A stretch of 24,278 nt of DNA, from positions 1-24,278 of the IMG/VR virus record IMGVR_UViG_3300006810_000371, one strand, 5' to 3'. Shown piece after piece: positions 2 to 13,149 of the stretch (the stretch's first letter is position 1; each line of letters starts with the position of its first letter). Source of the stretch: a virus. The notes beneath the pieces were generated by a model that was not told where the DNA came from, made no database searches, and saw only the letters and a program-made list of their open reading frames with translations. The position numbers and the translations under genes are program-made.

Positions 2-610
2 GCTACCCGTCCTGACTGGGATAAAGACCAGACACCTCAGGAAAAACTAGCCTCTATCCGTAGTTGGCATTTAGACCGTGGCTGGTCGGATATCGGTTAT
101 CATTTCGTCATTTTCAGAGATGGCACAGTCCTGACTGGTAGACCTATCGAAAAGGTTGGTGCTCACGTGAAAGGACATAACACAGGTACTATCGGTGTGT
201 CCCTTGAGGGTGGCTTTGGTTCTGCTACCACTGACTCTTTCTCGGATCACTTTACAGAAGAGCAAGAGAAAGCTTTAAGGGACTTGCTTAAAGACTTGCA
301 AAATAAGTACAGTGTTGATAAAATTACAGGGCATAACCAGTACGCAGCTAAGGCATGTCCGGGGTTTGACGTACCTACTTGGTTAAACAAGAAAGAGCCT
401 AGTAAACCCCGTGAGAAAGTTACTCAGTCTAAAACCGTACAGGCATCTGCTGTGACTATTGCTTCTGGTGCTGGTGCTGCTGTGTCTGCTATCGGTGTTC
501 TTGATGATGTATCCCAGTATATCATACTAGGCTTTGCTGGTATCATCATTCTGGCTGGTATGTTTATCATGAAAGAAAGAATCAAGGCATGGGCTAAGGG
601 TTGGAGATAA
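2..610 (+). CDS. Endolysin, N-acetylmuramoyl-L-alanine amidase (5' end outside window), with C-terminal membrane segment
   Basis: The gene runs in from the left edge, and the reading frame is open from base 2. The visible part aligns by eye with T7 lysozyme: a GYHFVIFRDGT strand, a KGHNTGTIGVSLEGG segment and a GHNQYAAKACPGFD segment. The last holds the second zinc His, the catalytic-type Lys and the zinc Cys. The first zinc His should lie roughly 20 residues upstream, outside the window. Enzymes of this Amidase_2 family cut the amide bond between MurNAc and the stem peptide. Unlike T7 lysozyme, the protein continues past the catalytic domain with a linker and about 50 residues holding a small-residue-rich hydrophobic stretch and a clear membrane helix (YIILGFAGIIILAGMFIM), then a basic tail. 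This suggests a membrane-tethered or holin-like endolysin. Its stop overlaps the start of the inner spanin. Confidence 0.9.
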   Translation, partial: ATRPDWDKDQTPQEKLASIRSWHLDRGWSDIGYHFVIFRDGTVLTGRPIEKVGAHVKGHNTGTIGVSLEGGFGSATTDSFSDHFTEEQEKALRDLLKDLQNKYSVDKITGHNQYAAKACPGFDVPTWLNKKEPSKPREKVTQSKTVQASAVTIASGAGAAVSAIGVLDDVSQYIILGFAGIIILAGMFIMKERIKAWAKGWR

Positions 611-846
611 TGTTCTTCTTCACTAGGATCAAACTGTATCTTCTTGTAGTCTTTGCTTTTGCAGCAGGCGTTCTTGGTGTATACTTCTCGGGTGTCCAGA
701 GAGGCATTGATAACAGCAGAAGTAAACTCGACAAGAAACGCCTAGACGATATCTCAACAGCAAAGAAGATAGAAGATGAAGTTGATGCTGACCCCTACCT
801 TGTTGATCGTGCTAACCAGTGGTTGCGCCATAAGGACAAACACTAG
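610..846 (+). CDS. Inner-membrane spanin (Rz-like)
   Basis: This 78-residue protein has one N-terminal membrane helix (about residues 9-30, LYLLVVFAFAAGVLGVYF) followed by a charged, helical, periplasm-facing segment rich in Lys, Arg, Asp and Glu. It ends in a DRANQWLRHKDKH tail. The size, topology and position directly after an endolysin fit an i-spanin, which couples to an outer-membrane lipoprotein to disrupt the outer membrane in the last step of lysis. The ATG at 610 overlaps the endolysin stop (TAATG). A TTG nine bases upstream is possible but less likely. The 3' end overlaps the next gene in another frame, as is common for Rz/Rz1 pairs. No database family was checked. Confidence 0.72.
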   Translation: MFFFTRIKLYLLVVFAFAAGVLGVYFSGVQRGIDNSRSKLDKKRLDDISTAKKIEDEVDADPYLVDRANQWLRHKDKH

Positions 847-991
847 TAGTTACTGCGATATAACATCTCCCATGTACTTCGATAAGTCTTCTGTCGTGCA
901 GTACTTATCAGTACATGACGAACAACTCCTCAAAGAAATTATTATTCACAATGAAAAACACAGAGCTATCTGTGGCGCTACTGATGCGTGA
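776..991 (+). CDS. Outer-membrane spanin lipoprotein (Rz1-like)
   Basis: This 71-residue protein starts inside the inner-spanin gene in a different frame and overlaps it by 71 bases. The N-terminus is a short lipoprotein-type signal: Lys2, a hydrophobic core (MLTPTLLIVLTSG) and Cys17 as the presumed lipidated residue. The -3 position is Thr instead of the usual Leu, so the lipobox is imperfect. The mature part would be about 55 residues. The overlapping i-spanin/lipoprotein arrangement is the classic Rz/Rz1 gene structure, and this supports the call more strongly than the sequence alone does. The product would sit in the inner leaflet of the outer membrane and bind the inner spanin across the periplasm. 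Confidence 0.68.
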   Translation: MKLMLTPTLLIVLTSGCAIRTNTSSYCDITSPMYFDKSSVVQYLSVHDEQLLKEIIIHNEKHRAICGATDA

Positions 992-1007: not shown

Positions 1008-4000
1008 ATGGCTGATATGGCTCTTATTAGCAAGCTACAGGCTCAAATTGCAGAGGCACAAAGGCGGTACAAGGAGGAGATGGATAAGGATGGCCAAGAC
1101 AGGAATGCCAATCCCGCTATTCTAGCTGCTCAGGTAAGGTCCCTCAAACAAAAACTAGCCGCTGCACAATCTGCCCCTGCTAGTACTGCTGGTACTACTA
1201 GTAATACTAGTAATACTGGTGGAAATACACTTCCAGCAGGATACCAATTACACACCAATCGTATCGGTAACACCAATACGTACAATTACCGTGTGAGTGG
1301 GCCTGACGGATTTAATAGTGGAGGACATGCTACTAAAGAGTTAGCTATTCAGGCTGCTATTGCTCATGCTTCCCCTGCTAGTACTACTGATACTACTGTT
1401 CCTGAGACGCCAGCAAAGTCCCCTGAGGAAATCACTCAGGGTGTAATAGATACTCAAACACAAATCCAGTCTGATCCTGCTGGCTACACTAAGCAGTACA
1501 GCGATGAGGTTATGTCGCTTACTTCTCAGCTAGATGCTTTGAACAGGGAGTACGGTGAGACCCCTACAGAAGAACAGAAGCAGGCTATCATTGCAAAGGA
1601 AAGAGAACTAGCTACTGCCCAAAGAAACTTGGGTACAGCTAAGCAGTACATGCAACAAGGACAGGTCAGTAGTGCTGCTGGTCTTATGTCTAGTGCTATG
1701 TCTGACCCTACGTCTATCATCACTGAGGCTACTCAAGGAACAATAGACACGGAAGGTACAGAGATTGCTGCTGGCACTGGACAAGTAACTGGTGAAGTCC
1801 CTTCTGCTACTGTTACAACTGGTATTGCTGGGGAGGCTGCTGAGGCTACTCCTGTTACTGCCACTACCTATGGTGCCACTACTGTTGGCACAGGGGCTAC
1901 TGCTGATGCTGCACAGGGTGTCGTATCTGATGAAGCACAGGTAACAGCCCAACAGGGTGCTATATCTTCCCTTGCAGAAGGCCAAGTATTTGATGAAGAT
2001 TACATCCAGCAAGTACAGGCAGGTACTCGTAAGGTAACCCCTGAGGAGTTGGTGGATTACGCAAGAGCCAACAATATTCCTACCTCTGAAGCTGCAAAGA
2101 TGCTTGAGCCTTACCTTAATGTACAGGCTGCTAAGTTTGTAGGAGAAACTCCTCAGGCAGAAGCACAGGATATCTACAGCTTAACTCCTACTCAGATAGC
2201 ACAACAGACTGCCACTAAGGTTCAGGATGCAGCAAAAGCTTCTGAGATTCCTACCGCTGAGGAAGCTATCACTAGTTACCAAAGCACAGTGCAGGGTGCT
2301 CAGGGTACTGTTGGTGCCAATGAGTTAGTTAACGCTAAAGACATTATTGGTGCAGAGAAGGCTATCACTGCTGTTGCTGCAACTATGGAAGCCCTTAACG
2401 AGGATGCTATCGCTGTTGCTGCTACAGGGTCTTTCTCTCAGGCTGCTCTTGCCAAGGCTGAACAGGGTACTGTCCCCCCGCAGGCTACTATCCAAGGACA
2501 GATGGCAAGCCTCATGGAGCAGTTTAATAACGGTACTCCTGCGTGGGCTGCTGGTGCTATGCGGGCTGCTAATGCTGCTATGGCTGCTCGTGGTCTTGGT
2601 GGTAGCTCTATGGCTGGTGCAGCTATCGTACAGGCTACTATGGAGGCTGCACTACCTATCGCTCAGGGTGATGCCCAAGCCTTCTTTGCAATGAATATGC
2701 AGAACCTGAACAACAGACAACAGGTTGCTCTGGCTAATGCTGCTGCACAACAAAACATTGAGCTAGCTAATCTGAATAATCAACAGCAGGTAGCTCTACA
2801 GAACAGTGCTAATGCCTTTTCTTTACAGTCTCAAAACCTGTCTAACCTACAGGCTGTAGTCTTGGCAAATGCTCAGTTAAAGTCAGCATTCCAGAATAAG
2901 ACACTTGATATCAACACTCAGTCGGCTTTGACTAACGCTGCTAGATATGCTGAGTCTGCTAACATTAACCTGAGTAATAGCCAGCAGGCTACCCTCCAGC
3001 GTTCTACTGAGAACTTACAGGTCGAACTAACAAACCTGTCGAATGCACAGCAGGCATCCCTAGCTAACCTTCAAGTTCGTGCTGCTCTTATTGGGCAGGA
3101 ACTAAGTAACGATCAACAGATGGCTGTCCTCCAGTCTACCCAAGACTTCGAGAGAGCTAACTTCGATGCTTCCGCTAAGCAACAGGCATTCCTCCAAGAC
3201 GCACAAGCAAAGGCTGCTCTTGAGGGAAGAGCTATGGACATTAGACAACAGACCCAGTTGTTTAACGTATCAGCTATCCTTGAAGAACGTCAGATTGAGC
3301 TTTCTAACGAACAGCAAACACGTCTCTTTAATAGCACCAATAAGCTTAGCATTGATATGGCTGAGTTGTCTAACAGACAGCAGACTGCTCTTGCCAATGC
3401 TCAGATTGAGGCTGCCCTTCGTGGTCAAGAGTTAAGCAACAAGCAACAGTCTGCCGTTCTTAACGCTGAGAGATTTGCAGAAGCAAATAACCTGACGTTC
3501 ACCACAGAGCAACAGACTAAGCTGTACAACTCCCAGCTTATGCAGACAGTCGGTATTGCTAACCTGAATAACAAACAGGCTGCTGCCCTACAGAATGCTG
3601 CTACTCTTGCTGGCATGGACATGGCGAACCTCAATAACCGTCAGCAGGCGGCTGTGGTAAATGCTCAGTCCTTCCTCCAGATGGATATGGCTAACCTGAC
3701 TAACGAACAGCAATCCGCTATGTTTACTGCTCAGGCACAACAACAGGTCCTTCTCTCTGACCAAGCCGCTGAGAATGCTGCACTACAGTTCAATGCTGCC
3801 TCTCAGAACCAGACGGATCAGTTCATGGCTACCCTCAGCTCTCAGATTAGTCAGTTCAATACAGCACAAAAGAATGCTATGGAACAGTTTAATGCTGATG
3901 AGGCTAATGCTATTGCACAGTTCAATGCAAGTCTTCAAAACCAGAGAGAACAGTTTAACGCAACGAACTCTCTTGTCATAGCACAAGCTAATGCCCAGTG

Positions 4001-4298
4001 GAGACAGGCAGTATCTACCACTGAGTTTGCTGCACAACACGAAGCTAACATGGCTGCTGCACAGGCTGCTAACGCTTTGACTACTGAGGCATTAGACCAG
4101 TTGTACCAGCGTGAGAGAGACCTGATGGCCTTCTCCTTTACAGCCTCTGAGTCCGCTATGGAAAGGATGGTGAATATTATCCTTGGAGATAAACAACTAG
4201 CGGCAGTCCGTGAGCAGATTAAAGCAGAAAAGCAGGCAGCTAACAGTGCTGCTTGGGGTGCTATTGCTGCTGAGGCTGTTAGCTTCATCTTTGGGTGA
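1008..4298 (+). CDS. Large repeat-containing virion protein (1096 aa; function unknown)
   Basis: No named family is recognised. Residues 1-60 are charged and probably helical. About residues 58-85 and 115-130 are Ser/Thr/Gly-rich linkers. Residues 130-560 are Ala/Thr/Gln-rich. From about residue 562 to 925 the protein consists of about 16 tandem 22-residue units with the core LSNxQQxALxNAQ. A run of shorter, roughly 11-residue units follows with recurring QFNA (about 925-985). The C-terminus has a helical segment and a short hydrophobic end. The extreme Gln/Asn/Ala content and hendecad-like spacing predict a very long alpha-helical or coiled-coil structure. It lies just after the lysis genes and before two wall hydrolases, so a virion fibre, needle or ejection-conduit role is plausible but inferred. 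AAGGA lies 7 bases before the ATG. Confidence 0.85.
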   Translation: MADMALISKLQAQIAEAQRRYKEEMDKDGQDRNANPAILAAQVRSLKQKLAAAQSAPASTAGTTSNTSNTGGNTLPAGYQLHTNRIGNTNTYNYRVSGPDGFNSGGHATKELAIQAAIAHASPASTTDTTVPETPAKSPEEITQGVIDTQTQIQSDPAGYTKQYSDEVMSLTSQLDALNREYGETPTEEQKQAIIAKERELATAQRNLGTAKQYMQQGQVSSAAGLMSSAMSDPTSIITEATQGTIDTEGTEIAAGTGQVTGEVPSATVTTGIAGEAAEATPVTATTYGATTVGTGATADAAQGVVSDEAQVTAQQGAISSLAEGQVFDEDYIQQVQAGTRKVTPEELVDYARANNIPTSEAAKMLEPYLNVQAAKFVGETPQAEAQDIYSLTPTQIAQQTATKVQDAAKASEIPTAEEAITSYQSTVQGAQGTVGANELVNAKDIIGAEKAITAVAATMEALNEDAIAVAATGSFSQAALAKAEQGTVPPQATIQGQMASLMEQFNNGTPAWAAGAMRAANAAMAARGLGGSSMAGAAIVQATMEAALPIAQGDAQAFFAMNMQNLNNRQQVALANAAAQQNIELANLNNQQQVALQNSANAFSLQSQNLSNLQAVVLANAQLKSAFQNKTLDINTQSALTNAARYAESANINLSNSQQATLQRSTENLQVELTNLSNAQQASLANLQVRAALIGQELSNDQQMAVLQSTQDFERANFDASAKQQAFLQDAQAKAALEGRAMDIRQQTQLFNVSAILEERQIELSNEQQTRLFNSTNKLSIDMAELSNRQQTALANAQIEAALRGQELSNKQQSAVLNAERFAEANNLTFTTEQQTKLYNSQLMQTVGIANLNNKQAAALQNAATLAGMDMANLNNRQQAAVVNAQSFLQMDMANLTNEQQSAMFTAQAQQQVLLSDQAAENAALQFNAASQNQTDQFMATLSSQISQFNTAQKNAMEQFNADEANAIAQFNASLQNQREQFNATNSLVIAQANAQWRQAVSTTEFAAQHEANMAAAQAANALTTEALDQLYQRERDLMAFSFTASESAMERMVNIILGDKQLAAVREQIKAEKQAANSAAWGAIAAEAVSFIFG
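2691..3780 (+). repeat. Tandem 22-residue (66-base) coding repeats
   Basis: These are in-frame repeats inside the 1096-residue gene. About 16 units of 22 residues share L(S/N)NxQQxALxNA, with Gln-Gln at a fixed place and Leu, Ala and Asn at regular offsets. Examples begin at NLNNRQQVALANAA, NLSNAQQASLANL, ELSNRQQTALANAQ and NLNNRQQAAVVNAQ. The DNA copies have diverged, so this is an old protein-level repeat and not a recent DNA expansion. A 22-residue period equals two hendecads, which suits a long, slightly right-handed helical bundle. Confidence 0.85.
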
Positions 4299-4303
4299 TA
4301 GAT

Positions 4304-5095
4304 ATGACTTACAAACCGTTCTACCTTAAAACTACTGCCTTAGCGGATGAATTAGTTCTTGCTGCTCTTGAGGGAGATACTGAGGTTACCAAGTCACTAA
4401 GGCCAGTGGCAAGACCAGAGGGGCTTATGTCTTCTCGTGCTCCGGGTAGGTCTCTGAGACCTATGGCTAGACCGGGAAGTATCTCTGATACCGCAAGCAT
4501 GGTGACAGAGGCTATCCGTGGGGCTGGAGAAAAGAGAGATAGGCTTCGTAGACCTGACGCTCCTGACTTAGGGGATGGTGAGCCTACAGAAGACATGATC
4601 GCTAAGTACCTTGCCTACATCGACGAGGTAAAAGAGTTTGAAGGGGAACTGAAAGAGTACAAGCCTAAACCGAGAAGTGAGGGGGCTTACTCTGAGGAAC
4701 TCGGAAGGTTTGGCTCTAGGCTCCGTATGTCTGAGTCAAGCAACAACTACCAAGAACAGATACAGTTGACAGATGGAAGGTACATGACAGGTGCTTTCCA
4801 GTTTGGTGACGCTAGATTGTCAGAGTACAAAAACGATACTGGTGAGTCTTTCACAAGGGATGAGTTTAAGAATGACAATGAACTACAGAACAAAGTATTC
4901 AAGTGGCACATAGCTGATATCGACAATTTGATTGATAGGCTTGACGCAGAGGGTTACAGCAGGGACGGTTTACGTGCTGTAGCTCACTTAGGTGGTAAGA
5001 CTGGTATGATGAAGTTTGTCAAGACTAGAGGTGGTTACAACCCGTCAGATGCTTTTGGTACGAGACTCTCGGACTACTACAACAAGTTTAAGTGA
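4304..5095 (+). CDS. Virion-associated transglycosylase-like peptidoglycan hydrolase
   Basis: This 263-residue protein has two parts. The N-terminal half holds MTYKPFYLKTTALADEL (1-17), a twofold SLRPxARP repeat (31-56), IRGA (71-74) and DMIAKYLA (97-104). These motifs recur in the next gene apart from the SLRPxARP repeat. The C-terminal half has RMSESSNNYQ with Glu144 placed like the catalytic Glu of SLT-type lytic transglycosylases. It continues with a GAFQFGDARLSEY segment, a WHIADID helix and a GLRAVAHLGG...YNPSDAFGTRLSDYY tail, a pattern I associate with phage transglycosylase-like domains. It probably cleaves glycan strands during DNA entry, replacing the transglycosylase domain that T7 carries in gp16. 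A GTG at 4295 would add three residues, but the match to the paralogue's start favours the ATG at 4304. Confidence 0.7.
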   Translation: MTYKPFYLKTTALADELVLAALEGDTEVTKSLRPVARPEGLMSSRAPGRSLRPMARPGSISDTASMVTEAIRGAGEKRDRLRRPDAPDLGDGEPTEDMIAKYLAYIDEVKEFEGELKEYKPKPRSEGAYSEELGRFGSRLRMSESSNNYQEQIQLTDGRYMTGAFQFGDARLSEYKNDTGESFTRDEFKNDNELQNKVFKWHIADIDNLIDRLDAEGYSRDGLRAVAHLGGKTGMMKFVKTRGGYNPSDAFGTRLSDYYNKFK

Positions 5096-5103
5096 GGTAG
5101 GAT

Positions 5104-5907
5104 ATGCCATACAAAACTCCTTACCTTCGTGCTACATCACTAGCGGATGAACTTACAGCTATTGCCACTGACCCTGAACTAATGGGAAGAAAGGCTAAGG
5201 CAAGTAGGTCGTATGGTATTGATACAAGCCTTATGCCTAGCACCAAGAGAGCTTTCGCTAAGTCTAAGCAGTCTCTTGTCAGTAGTATCCGGGGTGCCTT
5301 CGATAGGGATGAGTACTCCACAGAAGACTACCAACAAGAAGACCCCTTAGATATGACTGCTAAGTACATTGCTGGTATCTCTGACCCTGACTTAAAGAGA
5401 GAGATGGAAGGTATCATAGAGAAGGCAAGACTAGAGCAAGAAGCAAAGACAAGAGACGTAACCCCTCCTGTAAGCTTTGAGAATATCAGGACAGGTACCA
5501 CTGACTTTGGCTTTGAGATGGGTCCTGCTAGACCTAAAGTTCCAGAGCACATGGACACCCTCATGGCTATCATGGACAAGGCTGCTACTGCTACCTTTGG
5601 TGAAGGCTCTCGTATTGTTATCAAGTCAGGGGAAGGTCCTCACGGTTCTACCAGACACAGACAAGGACATGCGGCTGATATCGCAGTGTACAGACCTGAC
5701 GGTTCTCAAGTAACTGTTGCATCCCGTGATGCTAGGGCTTTCTTGACTAATGCTGCCCGTGCTGGTATACTTGGGATTGGTGCAGGAGAGGGCTACATGG
5801 GTGGTTCTCTGTTCCACTTAGACATCTTCCCCTTAGAGAGATACTCCCCAGAACAAGGCCAACGGTGGGGAACTCTCGGTCCGTCCATTCCAACTATATT
5901 CGATTAA
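5104..5907 (+). CDS. Virion-associated M15-type peptidase (putative peptidoglycan endopeptidase)
   Basis: This 267-residue protein has an N-terminal region related to the preceding gene: MPYKTPYLRATSLADEL at 1-17, IRGA at 62-65 and DMTAKYIA at 83-90. The C-terminal domain (about 140-267) carries the zinc-site pattern of M15 (VanY/DacB-like) peptidases: RHRQGHAADIAV at about 184-195, with His and Asp ligands, and FHLDIF at about 237-242 with the last His. Such enzymes cut D-Ala-containing peptide bonds in cell walls. The 8-base gap to the upstream gene and the shared N-terminal part suggest that both enzymes sit in the same virion sub-complex and act on the wall at infection. GAGG lies 6 bases before the ATG. 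Substrate specificity cannot be told from the sequence. Confidence 0.72.
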   Translation: MPYKTPYLRATSLADELTAIATDPELMGRKAKASRSYGIDTSLMPSTKRAFAKSKQSLVSSIRGAFDRDEYSTEDYQQEDPLDMTAKYIAGISDPDLKREMEGIIEKARLEQEAKTRDVTPPVSFENIRTGTTDFGFEMGPARPKVPEHMDTLMAIMDKAATATFGEGSRIVIKSGEGPHGSTRHRQGHAADIAVYRPDGSQVTVASRDARAFLTNAARAGILGIGAGEGYMGGSLFHLDIFPLERYSPEQGQRWGTLGPSIPTIFD

Positions 5908-5921
5908 GATAGGATACTACA

Positions 5922-6587
5922 ATGGCTTCGTTCGTATACGATAGACCTATTCCGGGGCAGTCCTTAACGGATGCACCTCGTAATGCCCGATATGAAAGAC
6001 CCCCTGAGATTGTTGACCCAGAAGATGCTCTTATGGTTCATCTTACTAGGCTTAACAAACCAGAGGCTATGAAGGGTATTATCAGTTTCGTTGAGGCTGG
6101 TGTTGACCTACAGACATTAGTTGAAGGGATTACTCGCAGTGCTGTTATGGCTGGAGTACACACGATTGATGTAAGCCTTATCGTTGCCCCTGTTATCCAT
6201 GAGTTTATTCGTAGTACTCTCGACATGGTAGGCGTTGACTATGACGAAGGCTTTGATGAGGATGAGGACGAAAAGAGACTCCAGATGTACACCAAAGCTA
6301 AGGCTCTTGCAGCCAGAGAGCTTATGGATATGGACAAGAAGGAAGGTCCTGTCGATCTAAAGTACGATGAGTTAATCGAAGAGATGAGTAAGGGTGTTCC
6401 TGAGGGTATGACCCAAGAGGAAGCCCAGCCAATGCCTGAGGAAGAAGCCCCTGCTCCTGCCCCACGTAGAGCAAGACCCTCTAACCCTGACCAGATGGAA
6501 CTTCCCTTAGGGGAACCTACCCAAGCCGCACCGGAACAGCAAGCAGAACCAGAAGAAAGAACTGGTCTTATGTCTAGGAGAGTATGA
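5922..6587 (+). CDS. Conserved virion-type protein, 221 aa (function unknown)
   Basis: No enzymatic motif is seen. The N-terminus MASFVYDRPIPGQSLTDAP is Pro-rich and extended. Residues about 35-105 form alternating helices with a conserved-looking hydrophobic core (GITRSAVMAG...IDVSLIVAPVIHEFI). A strongly acidic patch follows (YDEGFDEDEDEK, about 105-116). The C-terminal third is Pro/Glu/Ala-rich and probably disordered, ending in a short basic tail. The protein sits between two wall hydrolases and two large putative ejection proteins in one uninterrupted gene row, so a virion or assembly-chaperone role is likely. Its stop overlaps the next ATG (ATGA), which points to coupled translation. 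AGGA lies 7 bases before its ATG. Confidence 0.75.
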   Translation: MASFVYDRPIPGQSLTDAPRNARYERPPEIVDPEDALMVHLTRLNKPEAMKGIISFVEAGVDLQTLVEGITRSAVMAGVHTIDVSLIVAPVIHEFIRSTLDMVGVDYDEGFDEDEDEKRLQMYTKAKALAARELMDMDKKEGPVDLKYDELIEEMSKGVPEGMTQEEAQPMPEEEAPAPAPRRARPSNPDQMELPLGEPTQAAPEQQAEPEERTGLMSRRV

Positions 6588-7657
6588 TGAGTTTCTTAGC
6601 TGGATTTGTTCAACAGATGGATACTATTCGGGAACGTAATGATCGTTTCCGTGAGCAAGAGGCTGACCGTGCTGAGCGTCGAGAGATGTTCATGCAGAGG
6701 CTTATCGCTGAGCAGAAGAATGTACTTATTCCACACCTTCTTGAGTATGAATCTAAGAAAAATGAGTTTCTTGTAGAGCAGAAAAAAATACAGACAGCGT
6801 TGAAGACCAGCGGATTTAGTAACGCTACTATTGCTATCCTTACTTCTGCTGGTAAAGACGAAGAGGTTCTGTCGAGTATTATTGAGGCTAAGAAGGACGG
6901 TAGGTTCAACCCTTCTTCGGTAAGAGAGATTGATGAGTACGTTAAGAGTTACGCTGAGGAGAAAGGAGCAGATATCACGAAGATAGGGGAAAGCCTAGTG
7001 GCAGGTATCCGATACGGGGATATGAACGACCCAGCTAACCTTGAAGGTGTCATGGCTATCCGTCAAGTTCTTGAGAGTGATACTCCTATGGACGTAGCGA
7101 AAGAGGTAAGACAGCGACAGAGAAGAGCTATGGAGGTTCGCGCTGAGTTTGAGGAGGCTACGGCTGGTCTTGAGGGTATTCCTCTCAACGTGTCTGGTGT
7201 TAGAAGCTTGAAGGATACTGAGGATGCTCGCCTTCGTAGTATTATCCTCCAAACAGTAGCTGACCAAGTTGACCCCGGAAAGGTTAAGTTTGATGCTATG
7301 TCTGGGACTGCTAACTATGAGGGTGAGGATAACAATGTTCTACAACTCGCTAATAGAATCTATAATGATGTCTTAGACCAAGCGATGAGTCCTTCTGCTA
7401 CGACTGACCTTGAGACTATCAAGAGGTCTACTATCAATACCTTCTTGGGTAGAGCGGCTAAGCTTGATAAACCGAGCCTGTACCAAGCTTACGGTCTTCC
7501 TTACACTGGTGTCACAATCAATGTTAACGATGCTCTTAGATCCAGCAGTACTCCCGCAGCTATACCAGAAAGGAGCTTAGGGACACCGACAGGAACTCTT
7601 GCCAAAGACGAGACAGACGAAGAGCTTTACGAAAACTACAACTTGAACCTGCGCTGA
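6584..7657 (+). CDS. Putative internal virion (ejection) protein, 357 aa, coiled-coil N-terminus
   Basis: Family not recognised. Residues 10-75 are very rich in Arg, Glu and Gln (IRERNDRFREQEADRAERRE) and should form a long helix or coiled coil. The middle is mixed helical with no obvious catalytic motif. About the last 40 residues look disordered (Ser/Thr/Pro then acidic). Placement directly before the 1172-residue protein recalls T7 gp14/gp15, which precede gp16 and build the ejection conduit, but that parallel is positional only. Two consecutive ATGs (6584 and 6587) are possible starts. AGGAG ends 3 bases before the first and 6 before the second, so the second may be used. The start overlaps the upstream stop. 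Confidence 0.72.
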   Translation: MMSFLAGFVQQMDTIRERNDRFREQEADRAERREMFMQRLIAEQKNVLIPHLLEYESKKNEFLVEQKKIQTALKTSGFSNATIAILTSAGKDEEVLSSIIEAKKDGRFNPSSVREIDEYVKSYAEEKGADITKIGESLVAGIRYGDMNDPANLEGVMAIRQVLESDTPMDVAKEVRQRQRRAMEVRAEFEEATAGLEGIPLNVSGVRSLKDTEDARLRSIILQTVADQVDPGKVKFDAMSGTANYEGEDNNVLQLANRIYNDVLDQAMSPSATTDLETIKRSTINTFLGRAAKLDKPSLYQAYGLPYTGVTINVNDALRSSSTPAAIPERSLGTPTGTLAKDETDEELYENYNLNLR

Positions 7658-7665
7658 GGTTAACT

Positions 7666-10600
7666 ATGTCTGACTATTTAGATAAGGTATCGGGCAAGAA
7701 GTTTATGGACTTGCTTGAAGAAAAAGAGTTTAAGAAAGACTTAGTTAGGTTCTTTAGCGGTCCGATATACTCCATGACACCCGAGGAAATGAAAGAGCGT
7801 GGCTTTGAGGGTCTCGCTAATGATTTTGTTCGTCATATGAGGTACCAAAGCACAAACGAGTTCAGTGCAATACGTGACCTTAGCTCTGCTAGATCAGAAA
7901 GTAGCCCAGAAGAATTTAAGCAAGCCTTCGGTAGTTTGATGGAGGCTTTCGATGCTTCTGATGGAGGTGGCACAGGGGTTGTTGAGGGTGTCTGGGACTA
8001 TGCTTCTGCCTTAGCTACATCACCATCTACTGCGGTAACTGTTGGTAGTCTTGGCTTTGGTGCAGGCTCTAAGCTTGCAGGGCGTGGGGTTACTGCGGCT
8101 GCTCAGCTTGCTGTTCGTAATGAACTCCTCAAACAAGTGTCAAAGAAATCTGTTAGGAAAGCTGCTACTGCACAGGCTGGCAGGGAACTGGCAGAACAAA
8201 AAGTCAGACAGAAGATTGCAGCAGGAACTCTGGGTGGTATGCCAGAGGGTGTCGTAGCTAAGAGACAAGCCCAGAGGGTACTAACTGGAAGTGTCGGAAA
8301 AGAAGCAGCTAAGTCCGTAGGTATGTCTGCGGCATTCGAAGGGGCAATTGGTGCTCTTGGTACTGCTGCTGCACTAGAGACAAGAGAAGCAACTATCGAA
8401 GACTTCGAGTACACTAAAGGAGATGTCCTGACGGGTGCTCTTATTTCGGCTACTCTGGGTGGTGGTCTTGGCGGTGCGGCTGGTGCATTCTCTGCATACA
8501 AAAGAAACCAAGCATTCGAGACATTCTTCGAGGCAATTAAGAGAGAAGAGAAAGCTGCAAGGAAAGCACGAAAGAATGCTACCTCAACCTTGACACAAAG
8601 TAAGGCAAGCAAAAAGTATCAGGAGCTTGGTCTTACTCGGGCTGGCGCAGTACTTGATGCCCTTGACCCGAATGCTGTTATCAAAGGGGATACACTGAGG
8701 AGGTACGTTCTTACAGCGGGGGACTACAATCCTGCCCTGTCTGACAGAGGTCTTTCCTTGGATACTCTTCGTGGTATCGCTGCTGCTACCATTGATATTG
8801 CAGATCAGGTAAAAATAAAACCCAAAGAAAGAATTACGTCTGCTGTAAGTAGGGGTATCGACAGTGGTTTGATAACGACTAAGAAGCTAGACGAAATTAA
8901 GAAGAAGTATAACCTGTCTAACGATGCTATGAGTGCGATCTTTATCTCTGAGCTATCTGAGGCAGGTAAGGTCTTGCAAACAGCCAGCAACATTAAGCAG
9001 GTACTGCGGGATGTGAAAGGACTGGCTAATCGTGGTGTAAGTATGCCTAACGAGCAAGTCCTAGAAGACATAACTGCTGCTGTAAAAGATGGAAGTGCTA
9101 CTGGTCTTCTTGATAAAGGTCTGTGGTTCTTTAGAGAGGCTGACCGGGCGAGTATTGCCTTCATGACATCTCAGCTAGGGACTACTGCCGCCAACGTTGC
9201 TGGTACTGGCTTGACTATTGCAGCAGACACCTCTGACCAGTTAGCTAAGGCATTCTACAGGACTATTCTCAAAGGTGATTTAAGAGGAGCAGGAAACTCT
9301 CTTAGGTCTTCTATCGGTGTCCTTAGAGGTTTTACCACTAGTAAAGATGAGGCTGAACTCTTGCAGACATTCCTTGCGAAGGATATGCCACTTGAGTACA
9401 AGAGGACTTTCTATGATGTTATTCGTGCAGACGAAGTGACTGCTGGCGAATCCTCAATGCTTGTCCGTATAGCACGTAAGGCTAACTTCTTTAACTCTAT
9501 CACTGACGCAGCTTTCAAGAAGAGCATCTTTTACGCTATGTTGGACAGGCGTATGCGGGATGCTGCTCTGCAAGGTGGAACTAAGTACGGAAATGTTACA
9601 GACTTCTTGAAGAGAGGAACGTCCCTTGAGGAGATTGGGGAAGACTTAGTTAACAAGGCTGTTGATGACACTCGCCGTTTGACTATGCAAAGAACATACT
9701 ACGGGGACAAGACACCTTTCGGACAAACCGCTGCTGCTGTAGAGAAGATACACCGTAAGGTACCTTTCCTTATGTCACAAGGTATAGGTGTTCCTTTCCC
9801 TAGATATGTAGCAAACCACCTAGAGTACATTGGGGACTACACAGGTCTTGCTCTTGCTGGAGATACTATGGGCAAGACACTAAATGCAATGGGTTTGGGA
9901 GGAGCAGGCAGAAAGCTTATTGATGATCCTCTGAAGGAATACGAAGACAGAGTTGCTAGGTTTATCACTGGTATGTCTGGTGTATTCCTTGGTGCTCAAC
10001 TCCACAAGGCTGGGTACTTGCCTACCTACGACCAGTTCCTAACTGGTGAAGCAGAGGGTGGAGTAGACTTGAAGAGGTCGTTTGGTCCATTCATTGCAAG
10101 TACTTACTTGGGTGTCGCAATGGCACGTATAGCAGAAGGGGAAACTCTCGACAAACCTTTCTTGGATACAGTAAAAGAAATCGGAGATATTACTGTTGGT
10201 ATGACTGAGCTTGGTTTCCAAGGTGGTGCGATAGGTGACCTGCTGAGTTATGCGGATAACCCGTCTCCTACAACTGCGGATGCTTTCGCTAAGAGTGCTG
10301 GTAACTTCTTGTCTACCTTCACGTACCCTGCTGCTGTTGCCCGTGACCTGTACGGACAGATTGACCCGAAGGCTGCACCAACTCCTTACACAAGACCTAT
10401 ACTTCGTGGAAGTATGTACGAACAGTTGCCTGAGAGAAACTTCTTTGGTGATATCCTGAAAAATGAAACCTTACTTAATCAGGCAGTTAGGTTTGCCCCT
10501 GACCTTCAGTCTTTCAAGCTGGCATCCAACCAGAGTATGTCGGATGGGTACGACTTACCCCAGTACAGCATCTTTAATCCGTATCCTGTGAATAGCTTCA

Positions 10601-11184
10601 ATCCTATTAGACGACAGATGGGGTTCAAGCAAGAGGCTCCTACTACAACTCTTCAAAGAGAAGCGAGAGACCTTGACCTCAAGGAGTACAGGGTAAAGAA
10701 AAGAATTGCTAACCCTGCTGTTGACTGGTGGGTTACCGCAAGCCTAGCTAAGGGTAACAGGCTCACTGGCTCTAGGTCTTTGAATGATGAGTTTAAGATT
10801 TGGGCTAAGACAGGTAAGATTGATAAGTTCTCAGGTAGAACCTACGAACAACTTACTGAGCCAAGAGAAAAGAGAGAAGCACTCAAAGACTTTATACGTG
10901 ACTACTCTACAGTGGTGCAGACAGCAGTAGAAGATACCTTTGAGTCTATGCTTAAGTCACCTGAACCACAAATTAGAAGACAAGCCTTTGGGTACGTCCG
11001 TAACTTTTTCTTTATCGAAACATCTAAGGTAGGGAATAAGTCTAAGGTAGCTGAGGCTACAAGACGTGTGTCAAGGGGTAAGTTCTCTGACCCTGCTGAG
11101 TTTGTTCTTGAGACAGGGGACATAGACACAGAGATTACTAGGAAGTACGCTATCCTAGAGGAACTCGGAAACATAGAAGACTAA
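7666..11184 (+). CDS. Large internal virion protein (T7 gp16-like in position and build), 1172 aa
   Basis: This is the largest protein in the window and the last plus-strand gene before the terminator. The N-terminal ~110 residues are soluble and charged. Gly/Ala-rich hydrophobic stretches follow at about 122-150 (TAVTVGSLGFGAGSKLAG) and 255-280 (VLTGALISATLGGGLGGAAG), able to insert into a membrane. The rest is long, mostly helical and Lys/Arg-rich, with further weak hydrophobic stretches. T7 gp16 (1318 aa) has similar size, position and membrane behaviour, and enters the host to form the DNA conduit. No lytic transglycosylase motif is seen here. That activity appears to be supplied by the separate gene at 4304-5095. 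GAGG precedes the ATG by 6 bases. Identity by homology was not tested. Confidence 0.7.
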   Translation: MSDYLDKVSGKKFMDLLEEKEFKKDLVRFFSGPIYSMTPEEMKERGFEGLANDFVRHMRYQSTNEFSAIRDLSSARSESSPEEFKQAFGSLMEAFDASDGGGTGVVEGVWDYASALATSPSTAVTVGSLGFGAGSKLAGRGVTAAAQLAVRNELLKQVSKKSVRKAATAQAGRELAEQKVRQKIAAGTLGGMPEGVVAKRQAQRVLTGSVGKEAAKSVGMSAAFEGAIGALGTAAALETREATIEDFEYTKGDVLTGALISATLGGGLGGAAGAFSAYKRNQAFETFFEAIKREEKAARKARKNATSTLTQSKASKKYQELGLTRAGAVLDALDPNAVIKGDTLRRYVLTAGDYNPALSDRGLSLDTLRGIAAATIDIADQVKIKPKERITSAVSRGIDSGLITTKKLDEIKKKYNLSNDAMSAIFISELSEAGKVLQTASNIKQVLRDVKGLANRGVSMPNEQVLEDITAAVKDGSATGLLDKGLWFFREADRASIAFMTSQLGTTAANVAGTGLTIAADTSDQLAKAFYRTILKGDLRGAGNSLRSSIGVLRGFTTSKDEAELLQTFLAKDMPLEYKRTFYDVIRADEVTAGESSMLVRIARKANFFNSITDAAFKKSIFYAMLDRRMRDAALQGGTKYGNVTDFLKRGTSLEEIGEDLVNKAVDDTRRLTMQRTYYGDKTPFGQTAAAVEKIHRKVPFLMSQGIGVPFPRYVANHLEYIGDYTGLALAGDTMGKTLNAMGLGGAGRKLIDDPLKEYEDRVARFITGMSGVFLGAQLHKAGYLPTYDQFLTGEAEGGVDLKRSFGPFIASTYLGVAMARIAEGETLDKPFLDTVKEIGDITVGMTELGFQGGAIGDLLSYADNPSPTTADAFAKSAGNFLSTFTYPAAVARDLYGQIDPKAAPTPYTRPILRGSMYEQLPERNFFGDILKNETLLNQAVRFAPDLQSFKLASNQSMSDGYDLPQYSIFNPYPVNSFNPIRRQMGFKQEAPTTTLQREARDLDLKEYRVKKRIANPAVDWWVTASLAKGNRLTGSRSLNDEFKIWAKTGKIDKFSGRTYEQLTEPREKREALKDFIRDYSTVVQTAVEDTFESMLKSPEPQIRRQAFGYVRNFFFIETSKVGNKSKVAEATRRVSRGKFSDPAEFVLETGDIDTEITRKYAILEELGNIED

Positions 11185-13065: not shown

Positions 13066-13149
13066 TGGTAGCCGTGACCAGACTTGAACTGGTATGCCAT
13101 AGGCGAGGGATTTTAAGTCCCTTGTGTCTACCGATTCCACCACACGGCC
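13066..13149 (-). tRNA. tRNA-Leu (anticodon UAA)
   Basis: An 84-base class II tRNA. The acceptor stem GGCCGTG/CACGGCT has a terminal G-U pair like bacterial Leu tRNAs, discriminator A and an encoded CCA (13068-13066). The D-arm carries GGTAGACAC. The anticodon arm is AGGGA-CTTAAAA-TCCCT with anticodon UAA. A long variable region and the T-arm ACCAG-TTCAAGT-CTGGT follow. It would read UUA and UUG codons. It is transcribed with the nrdJ-phoH operon. Confidence 0.96.

Follow-up and report, generated by a model that had tools for sequence, protein, structure and literature searches.

In phage T4, internal proteins carry an N-terminal capsid-targeting sequence of ~10 residues, which the prohead protease cleaves. 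In T7-like phages, an ejection protein contains the wall hydrolase as one of its domains, and this domain can move between gp16-like and gp15-like proteins (PMC8954989, a review). Tailspikes of Klebsiella and related phages combine a conserved N-terminal anchor with a variable enzymatic C-terminus, and swaps occur between close phages (PMC10684548). HMO-2011-type phages are reported, in the available text of PMC6918029, to be among the most abundant known marine phages. Genomes of this type (CRP and related phages) have been published (PMC9038755, PMC8528129, PMC6918029), and they share with the DNA analyzed here an operon and a gene position, hereafter the slot. The available text of these three papers contains no description of the slot, of the N-terminal tag of its proteins or of domain swapping behind that tag.

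We analyzed a 24,278-nucleotide stretch (the window; IMG/VR record IMGVR_UViG_3300006810_000371, positions 1 to 24,278), which is probably a fragment of a phage genome. Two consecutive genes in its slot encode proteins A and B, which share the tag and differ in their C-terminal halves (Table 1). The likeness to the T7 gp16 ejectosome and to the K1E/K1-5 gp15-like carriers is a wall hydrolase in an ejection-protein gene set, virion-borne in those phages. Unlike in T7 gp16, the hydrolase here is a separate tagged protein of ~230-300 aa with many exchangeable catalytic kinds, and a profile search of the PDB detected no gp16 relative for the large protein P0006. With the Klebsiella tailspikes the locus shares a constant module, here a putative attachment module, joined to an interchangeable enzyme, but the enzymes are predicted wall hydrolases encoded beside internal-protein genes rather than surface depolymerases, and the sequences are unrelated. 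Like the T4 capsid-targeting sequence, the N-terminal tag would bring unrelated proteins into the head; at about 70-120 residues, it is much longer than the ~10 residues of T4.

Table 1. Positions of the features discussed, in window coordinates unless a locus is named.
Feature	Position	Strand	Basis or remark
Amidase endolysin, C-terminal part, with hydrophobic C-terminal segment	167..610	+	ORFs; weak NCBIfam AmpD amidase match (E=9.5e-4)
Rz-like spanin gene	601-846	+	Sequence inspection
Rz1-like spanin gene, lipobox LTSGC, overlapping the Rz-like gene	776-991	+	Sequence inspection
Gln/Ala-rich repetitive protein, 1096 aa, upstream slot border	1008..4298	+	Relatives have similar proteins ahead of the slot gene
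Protein A gene	4304-5095	+	263 aa
Tag module of protein A, residues 1-120	4304..4663	+	BLASTP, shuffles, AlphaFold
GLMSS in tag A, residues 40-44	4421..4435	+	GL[MGA][SAR] motif
Lytic-transglycosylase-fold domain of protein A, residues 126-263	4679..5092	+	AlphaFold, VIA-align, PHROG
Putative catalytic Glu144 (SESS) of protein A	4733-4735	+	Invariant in homologs
Protein B gene	5104-5907	+	267 aa
Tag module of protein B, residues 1-115	5104..5448	+	BLASTP; match to a tag profile built without the window
M15/hedgehog-type peptidase domain of protein B, residues 131-260	5494..5883	+	VIA-align, Foldseek, motif
P0003, 221 aa, downstream slot border	5922..6587	+	Homologs in phage records and IMG/VR
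Motif at P0003 C-terminus	6564-6578	+	GL[MGA][SA](R/K)
P0004, 356 aa, putative internal virion protein	6587..7657	+	Shared gene order (CRP-13 gp36 and others)
P0006, 1172 aa, putative large internal virion protein	7666..11184	+	Similarity to CRP-13 gp35
tRNA-Leu (anticodon taa)	13066-13149	-	
Slot protein of L116, 478 aa	L116 4539-5975		
Tag-only proteins, 89-93 aa	L053 5414-5695; L073 4031-4300; L077 3657-3929		
Inserted protein, ~147 aa	L034 7534-7977; L035 7515-7958; L153 4080-4526; L156 6444-6890		

We assigned the window to an HMO-2011-type podovirus because P0006 resembles gp35 of roseophage CRP-13 (35% identity over 99%) and because P0003 has homologs in phages of this type; its 19 homologous phage records comprise HMO-2011-type roseophages, pelagiphages and rhizobial phages. 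P0003 has PIPGQSLT near its N-terminus and ends in GLMSRRV. The slot, bordered by the Gln/Ala-rich repetitive protein and P0003, sits in a presumed internal-virion-protein operon. The window start truncates the amidase endolysin at its N-terminus; the full N-terminus is present in L001, a second contig of 8.2 kb that resembles the window closely without matching it exactly in sequence. The tRNA-Leu gene lies between the PhoH-like and ribonucleotide reductase genes.

Proteins A and B begin with MTYKPFYLKTTALADEL and MPYKTPYLRATSLADEL, respectively. The initial annotation had reported a common start followed by IRGA and DMxAKYxA in the same order, and the translated ORFs bear this out: IRGA and then DM(I/T)AKY(L/I)A follow downstream in identical order in both proteins. 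Its broader claim, that two consecutive proteins share a related N-terminal region, held as well. BLASTP aligned the two tags over 123 columns at 33% identity (E=9e-6), and the alignment score was matched by none of 5000 composition shuffles. Most of the signal came from the first 20 residues (0 of 20000 shuffles matched the score), and it was weaker in the later part that contains IRGA and DMxAKYxA (68 of 20000); without the first 17 residues, the score was matched by 3 of 5000 shuffles. The C-terminal halves of A and B did not score above shuffles against each other and have different predicted folds, as expected if these halves are unrelated, which had also been claimed. No tag-like similarity stood out in 115-aa pieces of the window's other presumed virion proteins (maximum score 49, compared to 92 between the tags). 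AlphaFold modelled the tags as helices at low confidence, and residues 32-60 of tag A had pLDDT <50 and were predicted to be disordered. By sequence inspection, the first helix contains several hydrophobic residues.

We observed genes A and B in the same order in L001; the two-gene arrangement is therefore unlikely to be an assembly chimera. A very recent duplication of the tag was also considered and is unlikely: DNA similarity of the tag regions was 19.5, within the codon-shuffled maximum of 22 (mean 11.8).

Neither protein was assigned by Pfam or NCBIfam, and searches of the PDB by sequence or profile returned no relatives of A, B, P0004 or P0006; we therefore compared folds. The C-terminal domain of protein A was modelled with pLDDT 93-98 from residue 131 onward (AlphaFold). 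VIA-align matched this domain to the Campylobacter jejuni lytic transglycosylase Cj0843 (Z 12.7, rmsd 2.4 Å, 120 residues) and to MltE, MltC and phage phiKZ gp144 (Z about 11.2). Glu144 was invariant among four aligned homologs. These models suggest that protein A has a lysozyme-like fold with a putative catalytic Glu, as in lytic transglycosylases. Protein B carries the motif STRHRQGHAAD (H185, D192) and H238-L-D240, both conserved in relatives. Its residues 131-249 matched the hedgehog N domain (Z 6.1, VIA-align; Foldseek agrees), and the domain also matched the zinc DD-peptidase 1lbu (Z 6.0) and MepA and Ply500 (Z 5.0). All top rows of this comparison belonged to one superfamily, and the zinc motif was concordant with them. 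Protein B is thus predicted to be an M15/hedgehog-type zinc peptidase, with HxxGxAxD and HxD/H elements and moderate Z scores. Overall, both proteins bear predicted peptidoglycan-hydrolase catalytic domains, and the fold comparison supports the earlier reading of one glycan-directed and one peptide-directed fold. Proteins A and B are not T7 gp16-like, because at 263 and 267 aa they end with the catalytic domain. This agrees with the earlier description of separate small proteins in the internal-virion-protein region. Relatives of both the M15 and the transglycosylase domain occur within large phage proteins, which also counts against an endolysin role.

A pattern search with the window tags recovered only the same phage; because the tag diverges too fast for such a search, we located loci by the flanking P0003. 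In HMO-2011-type phages, the slot, with the Gln-rich repetitive protein on one side and the P0003 homolog on the other, usually holds one tagged protein of ~230-300 aa. It holds an SLT-like protein in CRP-13 (gp38), a Hydrolase_2/SleB protein in CRP-603 (gp48) and a LysM plus GH19 protein in CRP-207 (gp43). CRP-9 and CRP-2 have other proteins of about 310 aa, and CRP-345, CRP-1 and ctYwJ313 have only a 65-70-aa protein (69 aa in ctYwJ313). From IMG/VR, we gathered the best 80 of at least 575 candidate stretches with the P0003 alignment. Within this set, 61 loci had both borders automatically readable, and every one had exactly one slot gene (two genes in 0). Manual inspection of four further loci without an ORF call found one slot gene each, and ~20 more syntenic loci, found via the transglycosylase domain, had one hydrolase each. 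L154, whose neighbouring genes are the same size as those of the window, has one tagged transglycosylase, and so does L046, which has the most similar P0003 (70%) among the matches listed. When bacterial genomes were scanned with the P0003 alignment, a single match emerged, at 32% identity, in a metagenome-assembled genome.

Among the loci examined, we observed a two-gene slot only in the window's phage (the window and L001); further two-gene slots may exist, since the P0003-based counts cover the best 80 of at least 575 candidate stretches. A second tagged M15 gene comparable to that of protein B was seen in viral contigs only in L116, among the matches listed. The slot protein of L116 (478 aa) has a tag-like N-terminus followed by M15-type and transglycosylase domains. 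Its M15-type domain matched L016 (6e-23), and its transglycosylase domain matched protein A (5e-10). Its M15 part matched protein B weakly (E=0.03), so that the two would be distant members of one family. Because L116 carries both domains, the predicted glycan and peptide activities also exist fused behind one tag. The initial annotation knew of no phage counterpart for this design. The design extends beyond the window's phage: a single tagged slot hydrolase is widespread in HMO-2011-type phages, whereas two copies are rare.

Some slots encode tag-only proteins of 89-93 aa (L053, L073, L077) and are placed among hydrolase-carrying relatives. These phages may have lost the slot hydrolase or may not need one. 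Some phages have a conserved protein of ~147 aa with hydrophobic segments (MFGLPLELITML...) inserted after the slot hydrolase and before the P0003 homolog. Hydrophobic N-terminal extensions of the slot ORFs in L068, L071, L081, L084, L094 and L095 were considered as signal anchors, a reading that we set aside. They are probably read-through of a T-rich spacer, because L078 and L090 have a comparable stretch that no start codon immediately precedes.

We considered whether the slot proteins are ordinary or accessory endolysins that are released late, with the N-terminal region serving in regulation or wall binding. PHROG names the family that matches protein A (phrog_26675, E=1.3e-11) 'endolysin', and the GH24 and GH19 domains found in slots are frequent in endolysins. 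However, CRP-13, CRP-9 and CRP-345 each have a separate annotated endolysin far from the slot, and the window has its own amidase together with Rz/Rz1-like genes. Structural-type genes flank the slot, and the tag-only proteins also speak against an endolysin function, which we regard as quite unlikely. Proteins A and B are probably not classical endolysins, since the amidase adjoins the Rz/Rz1-like genes and isolates have a separate annotated endolysin. By gene position, the slot hydrolases instead appear to be encoded among structural and ejection genes, distinct from the endolysin.

We built a profile from the tags of six other phages, with the window left out. This profile matched tag B (E=1.6e-4; best decoy 0.096) and the 69-aa slot protein of ctYwJ313 (E=2.5e-5), and it scored tag A at decoy level (E=0.078). 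After recruits were added, still without the window, tag A reached 0.012 and then 9e-4, with best decoys of 0.047 and 0.0018. Iteration past ~37 members led to drift and loss of the window tags, and for this reason only early rounds were used. With hhalign, the two window tags could be aligned to eight others over the first 20 residues only (P=9e-5). Because its profile match is inconsistent, tag A is tied to the wider family mainly via tag B, the slot and the first helix. The tag had no family match in Pfam or PHROG.

In HMO-2011-type slots, the tag precedes many different catalytic domains; the initial annotation had proposed looking for it on other domains. The C-terminal parts of the slot proteins fell into about 14 classes by BLAST clustering, several of them named by Pfam (PF18013, PF00959, PF01464, PF07486, PF00182). 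Classes without a Pfam match are defined by BLAST clusters alone, and 14 classes do not equal 14 folds, because several may share the lysozyme-like superfamily. Four loci (L106, L115, L120, L124) have related N-termini (40-46% identity to the first) and four different catalytic domains. The clearest pair is L124 and L208: their DNA is 92% identical over 600 bases upstream of the slot and 91% identical downstream, their tags are 91% identical in DNA and 94% in protein, and their catalytic domains are unrelated. Tags are 60-79% identical in L060/L055, L122/L096 and L080/L086, and the catalytic parts of each pair belong to different classes. On the P0003 tree, the catalytic class changes at least 47 times (101 loci; minimum 14, shuffled mean 70.6), a figure that is an estimate because the P0003 alignment is short and many forks of this quick tree are open. 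Strongly supported branches alone force 2 to 7 changes in each larger class. Where P0003 identity is high, tags remain alike even when the catalytic class differs.

These data bear on two other functions for the tag. It might inhibit the hydrolase or act as its chaperone, so that the enzyme stays unfolded or inactive up to ejection; the modelled helices joined by a flexible linker, and a module length that changes little while the enzyme type varies, would fit such a role. Tag-only proteins have no target in cis to inhibit, though, and the identical kind of module stands ahead of many unrelated domains, so that we find this function unlikely. Alternatively, the tag might bind the host envelope after ejection and target the enzyme to the wall or membrane. 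Binding domains are common in hydrolases, and the hydrophobic residues of the first helix could be read this way, but the module shows no Pfam resemblance to known binding domains and is partly predicted to be disordered. Its similarity at high P0003 identity, though the catalytic class changes, also argues against envelope targeting, which is very unlikely.

We also assessed a short motif. P0003-family proteins end in a GLM[SA]R-like sequence; in 92% of the 83 homologs, GLM falls within the C-terminal 25 residues (<1% in shuffles). GL[MGALF][SAGMR] occurred in 44% of tags compared to 4.4% of shuffles and was absent from the catalytic parts; its positions in tags cluster at residues 30-40. Similar C-termini occur in CRP-9 gp54 (GGLMAKKKKKK), CRP-13 gp53 (RPGLGAR), CRP-345 gp60 (RGLGTR) and CRP-207 gp58 (GGLASKKKRKKKK). 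The genes for these CRP-phage proteins lie between the portal and coat genes. We treat the motif as a lead, because counting began only after it had caught our attention, the sequences are related and hence not independent, and the pattern is loosely defined. The motif could serve in docking or mark a site of processing.

Taken together, we consider it likely that proteins A and B are virion-packaged peptidoglycan hydrolases whose tag acts as a docking or loading module and whose enzyme domain is interchangeable. The tagged slot hydrolases would then belong to the virion-associated peptidoglycan hydrolases. We infer their virion location from gene order, because we found no virion proteome of any HMO-2011-type phage in the open-access literature. 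The module would consist of a first helix of ~20 residues, a flexible linker that often contains GL[MGA][SAR], and a second helix. It may recruit the enzyme to the procapsid or internal core, most likely via a neighbouring internal protein. During infection, the enzymes would leave the particle together with the ejection proteins and breach the wall so that DNA can enter, protein A acting as a lytic transglycosylase on glycan strands and protein B as an M15-type peptidase on peptide stems. Phages would exchange the folded C-terminal domain by recombination near the tag boundary, and the second cassette of the window's phage may have arisen by tag duplication or by import of a tagged M15 gene. 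A more tentative possibility is a portable loading code, consisting of the tag and the GL[MGA][SA](R/K) motif of the P0003 family and several other proteins, that would move unrelated proteins into the capsid and out at infection. The slot would then be an evolved site of warhead exchange, doubled in the window's phage.

If the docking role is correct, it would explain why annotation has missed the slot hydrolases, as Pfam and PHROG contain no family that the tag matches, and enzyme types vary. Loci of the L124/L208 type are natural matched pairs for testing tag function. With its naturally exchanged enzymes, a small and separable loading tag would reveal how folded enzymes are packaged and ejected by a podovirus.
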